64,000 bases of DNA. It comes from Planctomycetaceae bacterium. GTDB lineage: Bacteria; Planctomycetota; Planctomycetia; Pirellulales; UBA1268. Below, piece after piece: positions 5,336 to 13,710 of this stretch; position 1 is the stretch's first letter; each line of letters opens with the position of its first letter. The stretch lies in assembly GCA_947449135.1 (NCBI GenBank), contig CANFQO010000004.1:1-64000 (forward strand), written 5' to 3'. Made by a program: the position numbers and the translations under genes. The notes below the pieces were generated by a model. It searched no databases. It was not told where the DNA came from and worked only from the letters and a program-made list of their open reading frames with translations.

Positions 5336-7570
5336 ATGCCGTTACAGCCACCGGAAGCAGCCCGCCCCTATCGCACCGTCACGGTCGAGCCGAGGAGCGA
5401 CGGCGTGGTAGTCATGTCGTTTTTCGTCCCCGACCATGGCCAGAACGTGCTCACGTCCCAGGCCGTGAGCGAACTCGCGGCGGCACTCGACAGCCTGGAA
5501 ACCGGCCCAGTACCGACGGCGGTCGTGGTCCGCTCGACCCGCGAGGGCTCTTTTTTCGCAGGCGCTGACATGGCCCGCCTTGAGAGGCTGCACGAGGCGA
5601 CTCCGGCGGAGATCGAGGGGCTCTGCGCTGCCGGCCGCCACATATTCTCGCGGCTCTCCTCCCAGCCCTGGCCGAGCGTGGCGATCATCGATGGCCTCTG
5701 CCTCGGCGGTGGCCTCGAACTCGCCCTCGCCTGCGATGTGCGGATCGCCACCGATGCCAGCCATACATCGCTCGGATTCCCCGAGGTGAAACTGGGGCTG
5801 TTGCCGGGCTGGGGTGGCACGGTGCGTCTCGCCCGGCTGATTGGCCCCGGCGCCGCGGTGGAACTGGCCGCAGCTGGCGAAACCGTCGACGGACCCACGG
5901 CTGCCAGACTGGGTCTGGTCGACGCCTGCGTGCCGCCCGACCAGGCGCTGGCATCGGCCTGCCGACTGGCCGAGATTACATCGGCACGGCAGAGCCATCT
6001 GGAACGACGGCGACAGCAGGCCGGACCGGTGACACTCGTCGCCGAGGAACGCGACTTTCTCGAGGCCATGTCGGCCGCCGTGATCCTCGGCCGCAGCGGC
6101 GGCCAGTATCCAGCGCCGCTGGCCATCCTGGAGACGATCCTCGCCGGTGCCGCCATGACCGCCGACGAGGCAGCAACCCGCGAGGCTGCCGCCTTTGCCA
6201 CCCTTGCAAAGTCGGATGTGTCCCGGCAACTCATTCGGGTGTTTCGACTTGGCGAACGCAACCGCCGCGACAAGGGACTGGATGGACAGGGGCTCGATGA
6301 GGGATCGCCCACCACTGGCTCTGACAGTCGACCGACGGATCGATTGGAAGCTGCCGATCCGCCCGCACGAGATCGTCCGGCCGTCATCGGTGCCGGCATC
6401 ATGGGTGCGGGGATCGCCGCCAGCCACCTCCGGGCCGGGTTCGCAGTCACCCTTGTCGACGTGCAGGCTGACACTCTGGCCGCGAGTGTCGCTGGCATTC
6501 TCGATGAGGCCGCCTGGGACCGCGGCACCAAGCGTACCGACCCCGCTCGGGCCGTTGCACTATCAGGCAGGCTCCACACCGCCACCCGAATGGCCGCTAT
6601 CGCCGAGTGCGATCTCGTCATCGAGAGCGTGCTTGAACGTGCCGACATCAAGCGGCAGGTGCTGGTAGAGATCGAACGGACGGTGGGCCCGGCGACGGTG
6701 ATCGCCACCAACACCTCGACCAACCCAATCGCAAAACTGGCGGAGCCCCTTCAAGACCCGACGCGATTCTGCGGCATCCACTTCTTCAATCCAGTCCGTC
6801 GCATGACGCTCGTGGAAGTGATCCGCGGGCCGGCCACGAGTGATGCGACCGTCGCCACCGCCGTGGCCCACGTCAAACGTCTGGGGAAATGCCCGATCGT
6901 CGTGCGCGACAGCCCCGGCTTCCTCGTGAACCGCGTGCTGATGCCCTACCTCCACGAGTCGGTAGAGATGCTCCGCGAGGGGATCGAAGCGAAGCGGATC
7001 GATCGGGTTGCCCGCGGATTTGGCATGCCGATGGGCCCTCTGGAACTCTACGACATGATCGGCCTCGACACGGCCTTCTATGCCGGACTCGTGCTCAGCG
7101 CCGCCTACGGCGACCGCATCGAGGCCTCGCCCCTGATTCCAGCACTGGTGAAGTCGGGTCGACTCGGACGCAAGACCGGCGCCGGCTTTTATAAGTACGG
7201 TACGGGCGGCCAACGGTCCCGGATCGATCGTCCCGATGAGGGCGTGGCCGCGCTCATCCGCCCCTACGCACTCCCCGCGCGGGAGACCACCGACGCGACG
7301 ATCTGCGACCGACTCCTGCTGCCGATGCTGCTGGAGGCGCTCCGCGTGCTCGACGAGGGGATCGTCCGCGACGGTCGAGACATCGATCTGGCCGTGATCC
7401 ATGCCCTCGGCTTTCCGGCATTTCGGGGCGGACTGCTGGCCTGGGGCAACACACTCGGTGCGGCGGAGGTGGTCCGCCGCCTCGCACCGCTCGCCGATCT
7501 TGGCATTCGCATGCATCCCACCCCACGACTGCTCGCCATGGCTGCCGCGGGCACGCCCTTCACCGCCTGA
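5336..7570 (+). CDS. Bifunctional enoyl-CoA hydratase / 3-hydroxyacyl-CoA dehydrogenase (FadB/FadJ-type)
   Basis: Crotonase motifs (FFAGADMARLER, IDGLCLGGGLELALACDVRIA, LGFPEVKLGLLPGWGGTVRL) then HAD motifs (AVIGAGIMGAGIAASHLRAGFAVTLVD, GIHFFNPVRRMTLVEVI, DSPGFLVNRVLMPYLHE, GRKTGAGFY). Confidence 0.95.
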   Translation: MPLQPPEAARPYRTVTVEPRSDGVVVMSFFVPDHGQNVLTSQAVSELAAALDSLETGPVPTAVVVRSTREGSFFAGADMARLERLHEATPAEIEGLCAAGRHIFSRLSSQPWPSVAIIDGLCLGGGLELALACDVRIATDASHTSLGFPEVKLGLLPGWGGTVRLARLIGPGAAVELAAAGETVDGPTAARLGLVDACVPPDQALASACRLAEITSARQSHLERRRQQAGPVTLVAEERDFLEAMSAAVILGRSGGQYPAPLAILETILAGAAMTADEAATREAAAFATLAKSDVSRQLIRVFRLGERNRRDKGLDGQGLDEGSPTTGSDSRPTDRLEAADPPARDRPAVIGAGIMGAGIAASHLRAGFAVTLVDVQADTLAASVAGILDEAAWDRGTKRTDPARAVALSGRLHTATRMAAIAECDLVIESVLERADIKRQVLVEIERTVGPATVIATNTSTNPIAKLAEPLQDPTRFCGIHFFNPVRRMTLVEVIRGPATSDATVATAVAHVKRLGKCPIVVRDSPGFLVNRVLMPYLHESVEMLREGIEAKRIDRVARGFGMPMGPLELYDMIGLDTAFYAGLVLSAAYGDRIEASPLIPALVKSGRLGRKTGAGFYKYGTGGQRSRIDRPDEGVAALIRPYALPARETTDATICDRLLLPMLLEALRVLDEGIVRDGRDIDLAVIHALGFPAFRGGLLAWGNTLGAAEVVRRLAPLADLGIRMHPTPRLLAMAAAGTPFTA

Positions 7571-7617: not shown

Positions 7618-8805
7618 ATGCCTCCATCCCCCACCAACAACCCCGACACCACGCCCGTTGTCGTCGCCTGCTGCCGCACCGCGATCGGAAGGGCCCATGC
7701 CGACCGTGGCGTGTTCCGCAGGGTGCGCGGCGATGAACTGGCTGCAGCGGTCGTGCAGGCCGTGGTGGCACGGAGCGGCGTCGAGCCCGACACGATCGAC
7801 GATCTGGTTCTGGGCGCGACTCAGCAGCGGGGCGAACTGGGCGGCAACGTGGCGAGGTGCGTGGCGCTCCTGGCAGGCCTGCCGTTTTCCGTGGCCGGCA
7901 CCACGGTCAACAGGCTCTGTGGCTCATCGCTTCAGGCACTCTCGCAGGCCTGCCACGCGATCACCGCAGGGGCTGAAAACGTGCAGGTGGTTGGAGGCGT
8001 CGAGCACATGCACCATCTGCCGATGGATTCCGCCGTCGACATCCATCCACGGGTCTTTGCCCGCTCGAGCCGGGGCATGCTCTCGATGGGACTAACGGCG
8101 GAGCACCTCGCGGCGGCGCATGGTATCTCGCGACGACGGCAGGAGGCCTACGCCATCGAGAGCCACGCCAAGGCCGTGCGGGCCGCGGATGCGGGCTTGT
8201 TTGAGGACGAGGTCGTGCCCGTGATCGGCCACGACGAGGCGGGAGCGGTGATGGAGGTGGTGGACGACCAGTCGGTCCGCCGCGGCACCACGCCCGAACA
8301 GTTGGCGTCGCTCGAACCGGCGTTTCTGCCAAAGGTCGGCACGATCACCGCAGCCACGAGCGCCCCGCTCAGCGACGGCGCCGCCGCGATCATCGTGATG
8401 TCACTCGCGGAGGCACAGCGACAGAGACTCGAGCCACTCGCGCGAGTCGTCGGCACCGCCGTGGTGGGCGTGCCGCCGGCGATGATGGGCACCGGGCCGG
8501 TGGCCGCCACGCGGAAACTGCTCGATCGCACGGGAGTGTCCCTCGCCGACATCGACCTCATCGAACTCAACGAGGCCTTTGCGGCCCAGGCGATCCACTG
8601 CATCGACACGCTCGGCCTCGACCCGGCCCGGGTCAATGTCCGGGGCGGATCGCTCGCCATCGGCCATCCCCTCGGCGCCAGCGGCGCCCGGATCACCACA
8701 ACGCTGCTCCACACGATGCGCGACACCGGCGCAACCTTGGGCCTGGCGACCATGTGCATCGGCCTCGGGCAGGGGATCGCCGTGCTCTTCGAAAGGATCG
8801 ATTGA
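7618..8805 (+). CDS. Acetyl-CoA C-acyltransferase (thiolase, FadA-type)
   Basis: Thiolase motifs NRLCGSSLQALSQACHAI, GGVEHM, ELNEAFAAQAI, NVRGGSLAIGHPLGASGARI, LATMCIGLGQGIAVLFER. Confidence 0.96.
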   Translation: MPPSPTNNPDTTPVVVACCRTAIGRAHADRGVFRRVRGDELAAAVVQAVVARSGVEPDTIDDLVLGATQQRGELGGNVARCVALLAGLPFSVAGTTVNRLCGSSLQALSQACHAITAGAENVQVVGGVEHMHHLPMDSAVDIHPRVFARSSRGMLSMGLTAEHLAAAHGISRRRQEAYAIESHAKAVRAADAGLFEDEVVPVIGHDEAGAVMEVVDDQSVRRGTTPEQLASLEPAFLPKVGTITAATSAPLSDGAAAIIVMSLAEAQRQRLEPLARVVGTAVVGVPPAMMGTGPVAATRKLLDRTGVSLADIDLIELNEAFAAQAIHCIDTLGLDPARVNVRGGSLAIGHPLGASGARITTTLLHTMRDTGATLGLATMCIGLGQGIAVLFERID

Positions 8806-8814
8806 CGGCCCGTC

Positions 8815-11800
8815 ATGTCCTCTGCGTCCATCTCCACTCCCGCTGCCCGTGCCACGGCGAATCGCCCAGGGGATCGGCGAACCATCGAATCGATCCCAGC
8901 CGCCGCATCGCTCGTGGAGCTGCTGCTCGTCAGGCTTGAGTCGTCATTCGACAGGCCTGCGGTCTGCGACGCGCTCGACAACGGCCAGACGTGGACCTGG
9001 GGCGAACTGATCGCGGCCGCCGTCGAACTCGCCGAGTCCTTCGGCATGCGGGGACTCCGCCGCGGTGACCGACTCGCCCACATCGGACCACACTCCACCG
9101 ACTGGATCGTTGTCGATCTGGCCTGTCAATTGGCAGGGGTGGTGCATACGCCACTCCATGGCGATGCGACTGCCGGCGAGCAGGCGGCCCAACTCGCCTG
9201 GCTCGCGCCGCGAGGAATCGTCTGGAGTGGCTCAGGGCAGCGCAGAAGCAGCGCCGTCGAGACGCTGATCTCGATCGACCTACGAGCAAACGGTGGCCTG
9301 CTGCGATCCGGCCAATGGCAGCAACGGCACGCCGACGAACAGTCGCTCCGTGACGCTGTCGCGGGCTACGTCGCATCATGCGATCCCGATGCATGCTCCA
9401 CGATCCTGCTCTCCTCCGGCACGACCGGTCGGCCGAAGGGGATGATGCACTCCCAACGAGCGGTCTTGGCCAACGCGCGCGCCGCGGCCGCTGTCTTCCT
9501 CGACGAGCCCAACGACGTACGGCTCTCGTGGCTTCCGATGAGCCACTCGCTGGCCCGCACGGGCGACCTCGTCACGGCCTTGATCCGCGGCAGTTGCCTG
9601 AATGTCGTGACCGACCGGCGGCGGGTGCTCGATGCCTGCCGCGTGCTGCCGCCGACGGTCGTTCTGGGCGTGCCGGTGTTTTTTGAGCGGCTCGAGCGGG
9701 CTGCAGAATCCGGGCGGATCCCCGATCTGGGGCAGGCGCTCGGGGGACGCGTGCGGGTCTGCGTGTCGGGCGGTGCGGCACTCCGTGAGCGAACAGTGAA
9801 GGTTTTTTTCGCCCGTGGAGTGCCGCTCGTGCAGGGCTACGGTCTCGCTGAGGCCGGGCCGGTGGTCACGCTCGCCAATCCCCGAATCGCACGCCCTGGC
9901 ACCGTGGGCCCGCCGCTTGAGGGCGTGGAGGTGAGGCTCGACACGCGACCAGGCTCGCTCGGGCAGTTGCTCGTGCGGACCCCCAGCCGCGCGATCGGCA
10001 TGATCGAAGACGCCACGGCCGAACCGCACGTCGACGGCGGAGCATCGGCAGATCAGCTCGCTCCGCAGTCGGCAGAGCAACCGCAGTCCAGCTGGATCGA
10101 AACCGGCGACCTGGCCGAGATCGACTCCGCTGGTCATGTGAGGATCACCGGTCGGCTGGTGGACACACTGGTGCTCTCGGGCGGTGCGAAAGTGCCACCC
10201 GCCGAGGTGGAGGCGGCGCTCGCGGAAGATCCCGTCGTGGCGCAGGTCTGCGTGGTAGGCGACGGCCTGGCTGCACCGCTGGCGCTCGTCGTACCAGACC
10301 CCAACGAGCTTCGTGCGGCCATGCGGCGGATGGGCGTCAGAGTCCTGACGAAACGCGCCGCTCTTAGGCACCCGCGTGTGCTGCAGTGGCTCGGCCGGCG
10401 GCTCGCGCGGCGGCAGGAGCAGTTACCGCGGGCCTGGCGGGTGCGGCGGGCCGTGCTGATCGGCCGACCGTTCGATGCTGCGCACGGCGAGGCAACCGAA
10501 TCACTCAAGCTCAAACGCCCCGCGATCGTCGCACACTTCCGTGCGGAGCTGACCGCAGCGGCGGAACTGCCGGCGCCGTCATGGATGGCGGTGGTGCCAT
10601 CTGGCCAGCCACAGCGCGCCGACACCATCCTGCAGCCGGACGGAGGCGCGAAAGCACCACGCGTCAGTTGGGCGGCCACCACCCTCTGGGGCAGCCAGCA
10701 GCCCCACAGCATAGGCCTGAGCGGTTTTGCAGTGGCCGCCGGGGCGGCCGCCATGCCGCTTCGTGACGCGGTCGCCGACGTCGTTGAGCGGACCGCCAAG
10801 GCAATCGCCGCGCTCCGCGACCAGAAGCGGCTCTATGATGCGGCTGAGGGGCCGACTGCCGCCCAGGATGGAAGAACCTGGCAGGCTGCGCCCCTCGACG
10901 ACGCCCCGGCCCAGCCGGTGGGAAAATTCTCGTCGGTAGCTGAACAGTCGCTCGGCGAGGCCGGGCTCTGGGGGCTGCTCGCTCCGGAACGCTTTGGCGG
11001 CACCGGCTGCACGCTCCAGGAATTGGTCCGCGTCGTCACGCGATTTGCTGCCGATGTGCCGACGGCAGCCGGGCTGCTCTCTGTCCATTCCTCGATCGGC
11101 GCGGTGGCGGCACTGCGGGCCTTTGGTTCGCCAAGCCAACAGGAGCGACATCTGCCGGGACTCGCGCAGGGACGACCGCTCTCGATCTTCGGCGCCACCG
11201 AGCCCAATGCCGGCTGCGACCTGCAGGCAATCGCAGCACGCCTGGAGCGCCACGACGGCAGGCTGCTGCTCTCCGGCACGAAGATGTTCATCACCGGGGC
11301 AACCTACGGCCGGCTCGTGAAACTGCTGGCACTCCTCGATGGGCGGCCGACAGTCATCCTCGTGACACTGCCAGACTCCGACACACCGTCGTTTCGACTC
11401 CGGCACTATGCGATCCATCCGCTGAAGCACGCCCACAACGCGGCCCTCGAGTTCATTCGCCATGAGGTGCAGGAAGCGGACATCCTGCAGCCCTCGGGTG
11501 ACTCCGCCGACGGCATGCGGATCGTCTGGCACGGCCTCAACCGCGGCCGCGTCACGCTTGCCGCCCAGGCGGCCGGCACGCTGCGTTTGCTCCTCGCGCA
11601 GGCGCGTGCCCATGCCCTGCGCCGCTGCACCTGGGGCGTGCCGATAGCATCGCGGGAGCTCGTGCAGGGAAGGCTCGCGCGGATTGCCGCTGGCATCGTG
11701 GCCTGCGACAGCCTCGCGGCCTGGGCGGCGGCGGCGATCGACGCAGGCCAGTCCGGGGAACTTGAGGCGATCATTGCGAAGATCGTAGCGAGCGAATGCG

Positions 11801-12408
11801 TGCGGGATGGGGCGATCAACAGCCTCGGTGTGCACGGCGGTCGGGCCTTTCTCGTCGGCCATCCGCTGGGCGACTCGTTCCACGACCATTTCGCCGCGAC
11901 GGTCTACGAGGGGGAAAGCGATCTGCTTGGCCTTGCCCTCTTCAAGGGCCTCGCCAAGCATCATCCGCTCGCAAGCCTGGCCGGCGAGACATCGCGTGGC
12001 AGGCGGGCAGCGGCATGGCTCGCCTGGCGGATCGGGCTCGTTGGCAGGCGTCCGTCCAGTGCCGACCTCTCGATTCTCGACCACCGACTGCGGAATCACG
12101 CCCGCACCGCGCGACGTCTGCTCGACGCGGCAGCAATCCGCATCGACCGCGGCATCAGGCGGTATGGCAAGGGACTCGTCGAACGGCAATTGCTGGTGGG
12201 CGGCTGGTCTGCGGAGGTCCGCGATCTGGTGAGCGTGCTGGCGGTGGCCCACCACGCCGACGCAGCCGGCGACAACGAATTCGATCTGCTGGCCGCCGAC
12301 TGCTGGTGCCGGCTCGCGCTCGCCCGCTGCCGGGGACGGAAACCCACCGCGGCCGACCATGCTTCCTTGGCAGCACTGGGACGACTGGTGGCGGAGCGAC
12401 CGGCGTAG
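8815..12408 (+). CDS. Fusion of an AMP-forming acyl-CoA ligase (N-terminal) and an acyl-CoA dehydrogenase (C-terminal)
   Basis: Ligase motifs ILLSSGTTGRPKGMMHSQRAV, QGYGLAEAGPVVT, ETGDLAEIDSAGHVRITGRLVDTLVLSGGAKV; ACAD motifs GLWGLLAPERFGGTGCTL, IFGATEPNAGCDLQAI, VYEGESDLLGLALFKGLA, all in one uninterrupted frame. Confidence 0.92.
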   Translation: MSSASISTPAARATANRPGDRRTIESIPAAASLVELLLVRLESSFDRPAVCDALDNGQTWTWGELIAAAVELAESFGMRGLRRGDRLAHIGPHSTDWIVVDLACQLAGVVHTPLHGDATAGEQAAQLAWLAPRGIVWSGSGQRRSSAVETLISIDLRANGGLLRSGQWQQRHADEQSLRDAVAGYVASCDPDACSTILLSSGTTGRPKGMMHSQRAVLANARAAAAVFLDEPNDVRLSWLPMSHSLARTGDLVTALIRGSCLNVVTDRRRVLDACRVLPPTVVLGVPVFFERLERAAESGRIPDLGQALGGRVRVCVSGGAALRERTVKVFFARGVPLVQGYGLAEAGPVVTLANPRIARPGTVGPPLEGVEVRLDTRPGSLGQLLVRTPSRAIGMIEDATAEPHVDGGASADQLAPQSAEQPQSSWIETGDLAEIDSAGHVRITGRLVDTLVLSGGAKVPPAEVEAALAEDPVVAQVCVVGDGLAAPLALVVPDPNELRAAMRRMGVRVLTKRAALRHPRVLQWLGRRLARRQEQLPRAWRVRRAVLIGRPFDAAHGEATESLKLKRPAIVAHFRAELTAAAELPAPSWMAVVPSGQPQRADTILQPDGGAKAPRVSWAATTLWGSQQPHSIGLSGFAVAAGAAAMPLRDAVADVVERTAKAIAALRDQKRLYDAAEGPTAAQDGRTWQAAPLDDAPAQPVGKFSSVAEQSLGEAGLWGLLAPERFGGTGCTLQELVRVVTRFAADVPTAAGLLSVHSSIGAVAALRAFGSPSQQERHLPGLAQGRPLSIFGATEPNAGCDLQAIAARLERHDGRLLLSGTKMFITGATYGRLVKLLALLDGRPTVILVTLPDSDTPSFRLRHYAIHPLKHAHNAALEFIRHEVQEADILQPSGDSADGMRIVWHGLNRGRVTLAAQAAGTLRLLLAQARAHALRRCTWGVPIASRELVQGRLARIAAGIVACDSLAAWAAAAIDAGQSGELEAIIAKIVASECVRDGAINSLGVHGGRAFLVGHPLGDSFHDHFAATVYEGESDLLGLALFKGLAKHHPLASLAGETSRGRRAAAWLAWRIGLVGRRPSSADLSILDHRLRNHARTARRLLDAAAIRIDRGIRRYGKGLVERQLLVGGWSAEVRDLVSVLAVAHHADAAGDNEFDLLAADCWCRLALARCRGRKPTAADHASLAALGRLVAERPA

Positions 12409-12437: not shown

Positions 12438-13514
12438 CTACCGGCTGGTCACCAGCGCCGGCCACCAACTGCAGAGATACCAGGCGCGGGGCGTCGTCCA
12501 TTCCGCGAACGCCTCCAAGGCTCCGCGGCCCATCGTGCCACCACCGCCCATCCCCTGCGTACCCGCCGAGAAGTCCCCGTCAAACACGTCTTGCAGCAGT
12601 CCGCGTGGCTTGGAATATCGCACCACCCGCGCGGTCTCCTTCGTGAGTCCTGCCAACTCGACCGCCCGCGTCACCGCGTCCTCCAGAAATCCGATCCGGT
12701 CGACCAGGCCCGCATCGACGGCTTGCTGCGCCGTGAAGATCTGGCCCGTTGCCACGCTCGTCACCTGTTCGTCGTTGAGCTTCGGCCGGCCCTGCTTCAC
12801 GATCTGCTTGAACCTCGCAAACATCTCGTCGACCAGGCTCTGCAACACCTTCCGTTCGCGTTCCGCCAGTTCGGGGGTGCGTTCCTTGGTGGGGCTCAGC
12901 ATCTCCTTGAGCGGTCCGCTGGCGATCGAGTCGTCCTCGATGTCGAATTTCTTCAGAAGCTTGGAGACGTCGAAGTGAGGGATGATCACGCCGATCGACC
13001 CGGTGAGCGTCGCCGGCTCGGCGAAGATCACGTCGTCGCGGCCACCGTTGGCCATGGCCACGTAGTAGCCGCCGCTGGCAGCGATGCCGCCCATGCTGAC
13101 AACCACGGGCAGGTCGCGTTCCTTGGCCAGTTCCGCGAGCCGGTAATGCAGTTCGTCACTGCCGCTGACCGTGCCTCCGGGGGAATCGACGCGGAGCACG
13201 ATCGCCTTGACGCTCTTGTCCTCGTCGATGTGGTCGAGTTGGGCACGGGCAAAGCCGCTCCCTCCCATGATGGCGCCGGCGATGTCGACGATCGCCACCT
13301 TGCCCGCCGCCATCCGGGAGAGCGAGTGATACTTCTCCACCACTCGTGCGTCACGCTGAAAATACTGTGCGGCCGCGCCGGCACTGGCCAACGCCGTCAG
13401 CAATGAAATGCCCGCGATCGACCAGGCGATCCACGTGCCCCAGCGGCCCCAGACGCCGCCCTGTTCGAGAATCACACGAGTCGGCAGCGGCGATGGCATC
13501 GGTTCGATCGGCAT
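12438..13514 (-). CDS. sppA: Signal peptide peptidase SppA, S49 family
   Basis: KAIVLRVDSPGGTVSGSDELHYRLAEL, PVVVSMGGIAASGGYYVAMANG, TLTGSIGVIIPHFDVSKLL; N-terminal TM segment. Confidence 0.93.
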   Translation of the reverse strand: MPIEPMPSPLPTRVILEQGGVWGRWGTWIAWSIAGISLLTALASAGAAAQYFQRDARVVEKYHSLSRMAAGKVAIVDIAGAIMGGSGFARAQLDHIDEDKSVKAIVLRVDSPGGTVSGSDELHYRLAELAKERDLPVVVSMGGIAASGGYYVAMANGGRDDVIFAEPATLTGSIGVIIPHFDVSKLLKKFDIEDDSIASGPLKEMLSPTKERTPELAERERKVLQSLVDEMFARFKQIVKQGRPKLNDEQVTSVATGQIFTAQQAVDAGLVDRIGFLEDAVTRAVELAGLTKETARVVRYSKPRGLLQDVFDGDFSAGTQGMGGGGTMGRGALEAFAEWTTPRAWYLCSWWPALVTSR

Positions 13515-13710
13515 GGCTGTACTCCGGCGGACGCACGGGTTCGGTTCAATCCCGGGCACGTGAGCCCGGTGGCGACTTCTCAGTTTGCCATTTTTCCACG
13601 AGTGCCGTTACCCTTGAAGCACAGGCGGTCAGGATTGTTGGCACGGCGTGCCACGGAACGTCTGCGCCGGCTGAATCATGACGGCGACAGAGTGAGAGGA
13701 GTGTGGCGAC

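Follow-up and report, generated by a model that had tools for sequence, protein, structure and literature searches.

A gene at 8815..12408 (+ strand) of the window, the whole stretch of 64,000 nucleotides of Planctomycetaceae DNA that was analysed, joins a fadD-like and a fadE-like part in one reading frame and closes a beta-oxidation operon. The fused architecture occurs in most sampled genomes of the host family and goes back to a single fusion event. The motifs of both parts are conserved, the dehydrogenase part is the only acyl-CoA dehydrogenase (ACAD) in the genome of the window and in most others of the family, and no recognisable genes for an electron-transfer flavoprotein (ETF) were found in the family. 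No report of this fusion was found in the literature searched, and it apparently represents an undescribed domain architecture in primary fatty-acid catabolism that is fixed across an aquatic planctomycete family. We rate the combination of a single ACAD with the lack of ETF as more important than the fusion itself. Taken as a whole, the results make it likely that the protein is a bifunctional FadD-FadE which originated once at the base of the family, brings benefit by co-localisation of its two halves and is re-oxidised without ETF.

Domain organisation of the fused gene and its operon

The open reading frame starts with ATG and encodes 1197 amino acids without internal stop codons. It is the last gene of an operon with the order fadB-fadA-[fadD-fadE]. 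The fadB-like gene (5336..7570, +) codes for an enoyl-CoA hydratase and 3-hydroxyacyl-CoA dehydrogenase (Pfam ECH_1, 3HCDH_N and 3HCDH); its longest reading frame runs from TTG 5258, but ATG 5336 is the more likely start. FadB was the top NCBIfam model for its product; the score of 576 bits lies under the equivalog cut-off. A gap of 47 nt separates it from the fadA-like gene for an acetyl-CoA C-acyltransferase (7618..8805, +; Thiolase_N and Thiolase_C), whose product exceeded the TIGR01930 cut-off (412 vs 240.55 bits), and a further 9 nt separate the latter from the fusion. The first-pass annotation had described a ligase and an ACAD in a single frame, as the last gene of a beta-oxidation operon. 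Its coordinates were right, and Pfam analysis of the 1197-aa protein confirmed AMP-binding ligase domains followed by ACAD domains. A gene for an SppA-like S49 peptidase (12438-13559, -) is convergent with the fusion and lies 30 nt past its stop codon.

The ligase half comprises residues 46-580 (8950..10554, +), as delimited by Pfam matches and by alignment columns that vary little or not at all among 20 fused proteins. AMP-binding (PF00501) covered residues 46-391 with 197 bits (cut-off 29.9) and AMP-binding_C_3 residues 450-500 with 31 bits (cut-off 20.8); AMP-binding_C scored slightly below its cut-off (22.2 vs 24.5). The half displays the ligase motifs SSGTTGRPKG (A3, residues 200-209), YGLAE (342-346), TGD (430-432) and ITGR. 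K565, the conserved catalytic lysine in GEATESLKLKR, is invariant across the 20 aligned proteins, and the A3, A5, A7 and A8 motifs are kept in all of them except for a disturbed A7 region in one (L049). In that locus (about 7300-7400, ligase A7/A8) the WxxTGD region is an unrelated alanine-rich stretch between flanks that align, a pattern resembling a pair of compensating frameshifts. Long-chain fatty-acid CoA ligases are among the named models nearest to the ligase half, and all of these nearest models scored far under their curated cut-offs. Judged by its motifs, the ligase half is an acyl-CoA synthetase of the ANL superfamily and of the FadD/long-chain type, with a putative CoA-ligase activity as opposed to that of a fatty acyl-AMP ligase (FAAL). 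It has no close paralogue within the genome of the window, where the next best match reached 29% identity. An AMP-binding domain at G000:C3:45962-47029 of the same genome (G000) lies inside a 3563-aa open frame that may encode a large multidomain synthetase.

A variable linker (approximately residues 585-618; 10567..10668, +), for which pLDDT fell below 50 at residues 595-615, connects the ligase to the catalytic part of the ACAD (residues 619-1046; 10669..11952, +). The latter extends from a WxxxxLW segment, which aligns to the N-terminus of unfused FadE, through the FAD/acyl-CoA binding core. Acyl-CoA_dh_N (PF02771, residues 711-786) was found above its cut-off and Acyl-CoA_dh_1 (PF00441, residues 899-1038) with 77 bits. 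Acyl-CoA_dh_M (PF02770, residues 792-865; cut-off 33.3) reached 32.3 bits in the whole protein and 33.5 bits in the ACAD part alone. The glutamate at the position of the ACAD catalytic base, E1032 in YEGESD (11908..11910, +), is invariant in fused and unfused relatives, and the FAD-contacting arginine R937 is invariant across the 20 fused proteins, so that the loss of binding residues considered in the first-pass annotation was not seen. In fact, over these 20 proteins, at 49-76% identity, neither half has lost its catalytic residues.

The C-terminus (residues 1047-1197; 11953..12405, +) had been regarded as about 100 amino acids explained by neither enzyme family. In an AlphaFold2 model of the fused protein (mean pLDDT 73; pTM 0.53, which makes the placing of the halves relative to each other unreliable), the top Foldseek match was human VLCAD, C-terminal domain included, with a TM-score over VLCAD of 0.71-0.74. 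Moreover, the profile alignment of the ACAD half continued through the VLCAD C-terminal domain up to VLCAD residue 548-568. PF21343 gave 13.6 bits in this region, below its cut-off of 27.8, and matched weakly in eight of 15 members. On the basis of fold match, profile alignment and these weak matches, the C-terminal ~150 aa most likely form a domain of the VLCAD/ACAD9 type. A tryptophan- and arginine-rich segment, RRAAAWLAWRIGLVGRR (approximately residues 1063-1079), is located at the junction with the catalytic part. Its pattern is suggestive of an amphipathic membrane helix (1063-1080), but this candidate was rejected since the hydrophobic moment was low (0.19) and other segments scored equally.

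Distribution, origin and possible benefit of the fusion

The genome of the window is a draft of 3.69 Mb in 169 contigs, and genome-wide presence or absence was judged by family profile searches. Within its family (f1), both halves occur in one open frame in approx. 43 of the 50 genomes sampled, at approx. 49-78% identity; in one case (G007) the frame includes a masked run of N. Given this recurrence, the fused frame is due neither to chance nor to a contig artefact. Among the remaining genomes, the linker is frame-broken in G003 and G014, the locus is cut by contig ends in G015, G016 and G020, and another gene set is present in G022 and G034. Both of the latter are assigned to f1, and in place of the fusion they contain divergent unfused FadB, FadA, FadD and FadE (L068 and L069) that group with other families, which points to either replacement by transfer or mis-binned contigs. 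A contig scan of named genomes displayed 26 further loci, most of them fused and partly overlapping with the 50-genome sample. All belong to planctomycete-filed metagenome-assembled genomes (MAGs), among them MAGs listed under Planctomycetaceae or Pirellulales such as ZH-3NOV15-plancto7, a name in keeping with the Lake Zurich MAG set of PMC6461901. The family may correspond to Vodnikaceae or Nixeaceae, two freshwater families named in a study of Lake Zurich MAGs (PMC6461901), which lists beta-oxidation in the reconstructed metabolism and does not mention the fusion.

Outside the family, direct inspection covered approx. 25 loci that represent about 15 further families of the same order. They mostly show the order fadB-fadA-fadD-fadE with fadD and fadE as separate reading frames. 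Among 392 genomes sampled across the phylum, no fusion besides that of the window's genome was found. Open frames of about 1330 aa in G053, G115 and others were considered as a second, independent fusion and rejected, as on direct reading each resolved into two same-phase genes with intervening stop codons. Whether built from the ACAD or from the ligase portion, the tree needs only one change between the fused and the unfused state (SH-aLRT 100); both are quick trees, in which the long-branched L061 adjoins the fused clade. Furthermore, G005 and G010, the basal members of the family, already have the fusion, which arose a single time at the base of f1. Unfused FadE proteins carry an N-terminal segment of ~45 aa (SFAETALKLGGKSxxExRRTGAIDxADDQVExLF; e.g. 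L058, 10088-12103) that is absent from the fusion, and similarity between the two restarts at the W625 segment (profile probability 98.7). In an ancestral operon of the order fadB-fadA-fadD-fadE, the neighbouring genes fadD and fadE would thus have been joined once, with loss of the ~45 N-terminal residues of FadE.

In three relatives, ligase and ACAD are in different frames (L050 of G003, L053, and L067 of G014), and each of them nests inside the fused clade. The breaks (L050, 7500-8150; L053, 7380-7900; L067, reverse strand, 8202-8752) all fall into the wider linker (approximately residues 585-700), which makes up about one tenth of the protein. Random sequencing errors are an unlikely cause; judging from position only, we estimate their chance of producing this pattern at about 1 in 1000. 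Unless they are sequencing errors, the three breaks indicate that a single polypeptide is not strictly required.

A single PF00441 match, the fused gene itself, was obtained in the genome of the window. Of 36 genomes of the family, 31 likewise have one match; four others contain two matches and one, 69% complete, contains none. In the other families of the order the counts range from 1 to 12. We infer that the N-terminal half uses ATP to turn a long-chain fatty acid via acyl-AMP into acyl-CoA. The ACAD half would convert this to trans-2-enoyl-CoA, E1032 serving as base and FAD accepting the hydride. The operon's FadB and FadA would then finish the cycle and the shortened acyl-CoA would pass back to the same ACAD.

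It had been hypothesised that the acyl-CoA is channelled from ligase to dehydrogenase. As the fusion is the only ACAD, shortened acyl-CoA released by FadB and FadA must return to it, and the tether could aid the first turn only. Contact between the domains cannot be read from the model at its low pTM, and three lineages tolerate a broken frame in the linker. Substrate channelling is not supported and stays a hypothesis. What stands of the earlier interpretation is the operon-terminal fusion, the motifs for both activities and the conservation across the family, in contrast to channelling and an unexplained C-terminus. The benefit of the fusion likely consists in a fixed 1:1 supply of both enzymes and their co-localisation, probably at the membrane.

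The strongest alternative, to which we assign a little less than an even chance, is a neutral joining of two ordinary enzymes in compact genomes, the tether having no kinetic effect and being unopposed by selection. fadD and fadE were already adjacent and in the same order in the ancestor, the linker is variable and disordered, the secondary frame breaks are confined to it, and the family has smaller genomes than most members of its order. On the other hand, the fusion has been held in the great majority of the sampled genomes down to ~50% identity, where more splits might be expected. Neutral joining is compatible with a bifunctional, ETF-free FadD-FadE of single origin and denies only that the fusion is of benefit.

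Electron acceptor of the dehydrogenase half

Family profile searches, in which controls and family f17 were positive, detected ETF in none of the f1 genomes (PF00766, 0/24; PF01012, 0/50); an unrecognisable ETF would escape such profiles. A profile search of the window's genome for ETF-QO (PF05187) was also negative. Across the order, ETF was present in 27 of 178 genomes matching the fadDE set (absent from 151) vs 51 of 69 without the set, an association of Fisher p ~3e-18, uncorrected for shared ancestry. Genomes with both ETF and fadDE are often rich in ACADs (G036, 11; G047, 10; G053, 9; G055, 12), with one in G041, and the ETF-rich family f17 gave no match to the fadDE set at the threshold used. 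As ETF is missing in f1 and in most fadDE-carrying genomes, FadE is probably not ETF-dependent, and the electrons of the fused enzyme probably go to another acceptor. The route by which bacterial FadE, including that of E. coli, is re-oxidised is an acknowledged open question (PMC9329746, PMC11495604), which the presence of three ETF homologues complicates in E. coli (PMC9329746). A one-ACAD, ETF-free lineage offers a clean natural case for separating quinone reduction, oxidase activity and an unknown partner.

FADH2 would most likely be re-oxidised without ETF, perhaps directly to quinone, and a membrane/quinone route is our best remaining guess. Tentatively, the protein could be a membrane-bound, ETF-free entry enzyme that takes up a free fatty acid at the membrane, activates and dehydrogenates it and reduces the quinone pool directly; in that case, fatty-acid oxidation throughout a bacterial family would depend on a single ACAD and dispense with ETF. 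Equally speculative is the replacement of ETF by a soluble redox protein that is unrecognised, diverged or of another kind. Profile searches are blind to unrelated proteins, which leaves room for such a partner, but no extra conserved operon neighbour stood out in a comparison that was weak and swamped by shadow ORFs.

A transfer of electrons to O2 by an ACAD half acting as acyl-CoA oxidase, giving H2O2 and making ETF unneeded, is less likely, and we consider it improbable. It would agree with the lack of ETF in the family, with a report that E. coli FadE produces H2O2 in vivo (PMC11495604) and with a KatG-type peroxidase in the window's genome and 12 others of the 24 family genomes searched. 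However, heme catalase was found in none of these 24, and 11 of them contain neither catalase nor KatG. In a related ACAD, the exchange T317G (Thr to Gly) turned the dehydrogenase into an oxidase (PMC6017585). The corresponding threonine is apparently kept here as T827 (KMFIT), which is invariant in the fused proteins and was equated with the ACAD threonine by motif and not by structural alignment; by this motif match, the O2-reactive glycine is not present.

A catalytically dead half serving as scaffold is very unlikely. Such a reading could draw on unusual ACAD signature residues: the conserved glutamine of the QxxGGxG FAD signature is replaced by glycine (G1005), and A1011 and C801 stand in place of glycine and serine, respectively. 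But the unfused FadE proteins of the same order also lack this glutamine, which makes the change older than the fusion. Moreover, the ligase motifs, K565 among them, are invariant, as are E1032 and R937, and the fusion carries the only ACAD of the genome. Finally, an assembly or frameshift artefact, conceivable in a draft of 169 contigs and named at first as a possible error at the junction, can be dismissed because the fusion recurs in dozens of relatives assembled independently in different studies.

Comparison with known systems

The closest counterparts of the fused protein are the unfused FadD and FadE of other members of the order. They share the gene order and are ~30-36% (ligase) and 36-41% (ACAD) identical to the fusion, and their FadE likewise has lost the FAD-signature glutamine and kept YEGE. 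In contrast to the fusion, they are two polypeptides and FadE retains the conserved N-terminal ~45 aa. Human VLCAD (ACADVL) and ACAD9 resemble the ACAD half in combining an ACAD core with a C-terminal domain, but display only ~21% identity and no ligase. Human VLCAD uses ETF. Fusions of ACADs to another enzyme are represented by ACAD10 and ACAD11, which combine a kinase with an ACAD. Acyl-adenylating domains fused to other enzymes are known from FAALs linked to PKS/NRPS (PMC8460268). Both groups differ from the planctomycete protein in partner, context and pathway; the latter resides in a beta-oxidation operon without an adjoining PKS/NRPS gene. E. coli FadE fulfils the FadE role, and its acceptor is likewise unsettled, with no ETF partner identified (PMC9329746, PMC11495604). 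Unlike the fusion, it is a protein of 814 aa with a larger, different C-terminal extension, is separate from FadD and occurs in an organism with ETF homologues (PMC9329746).
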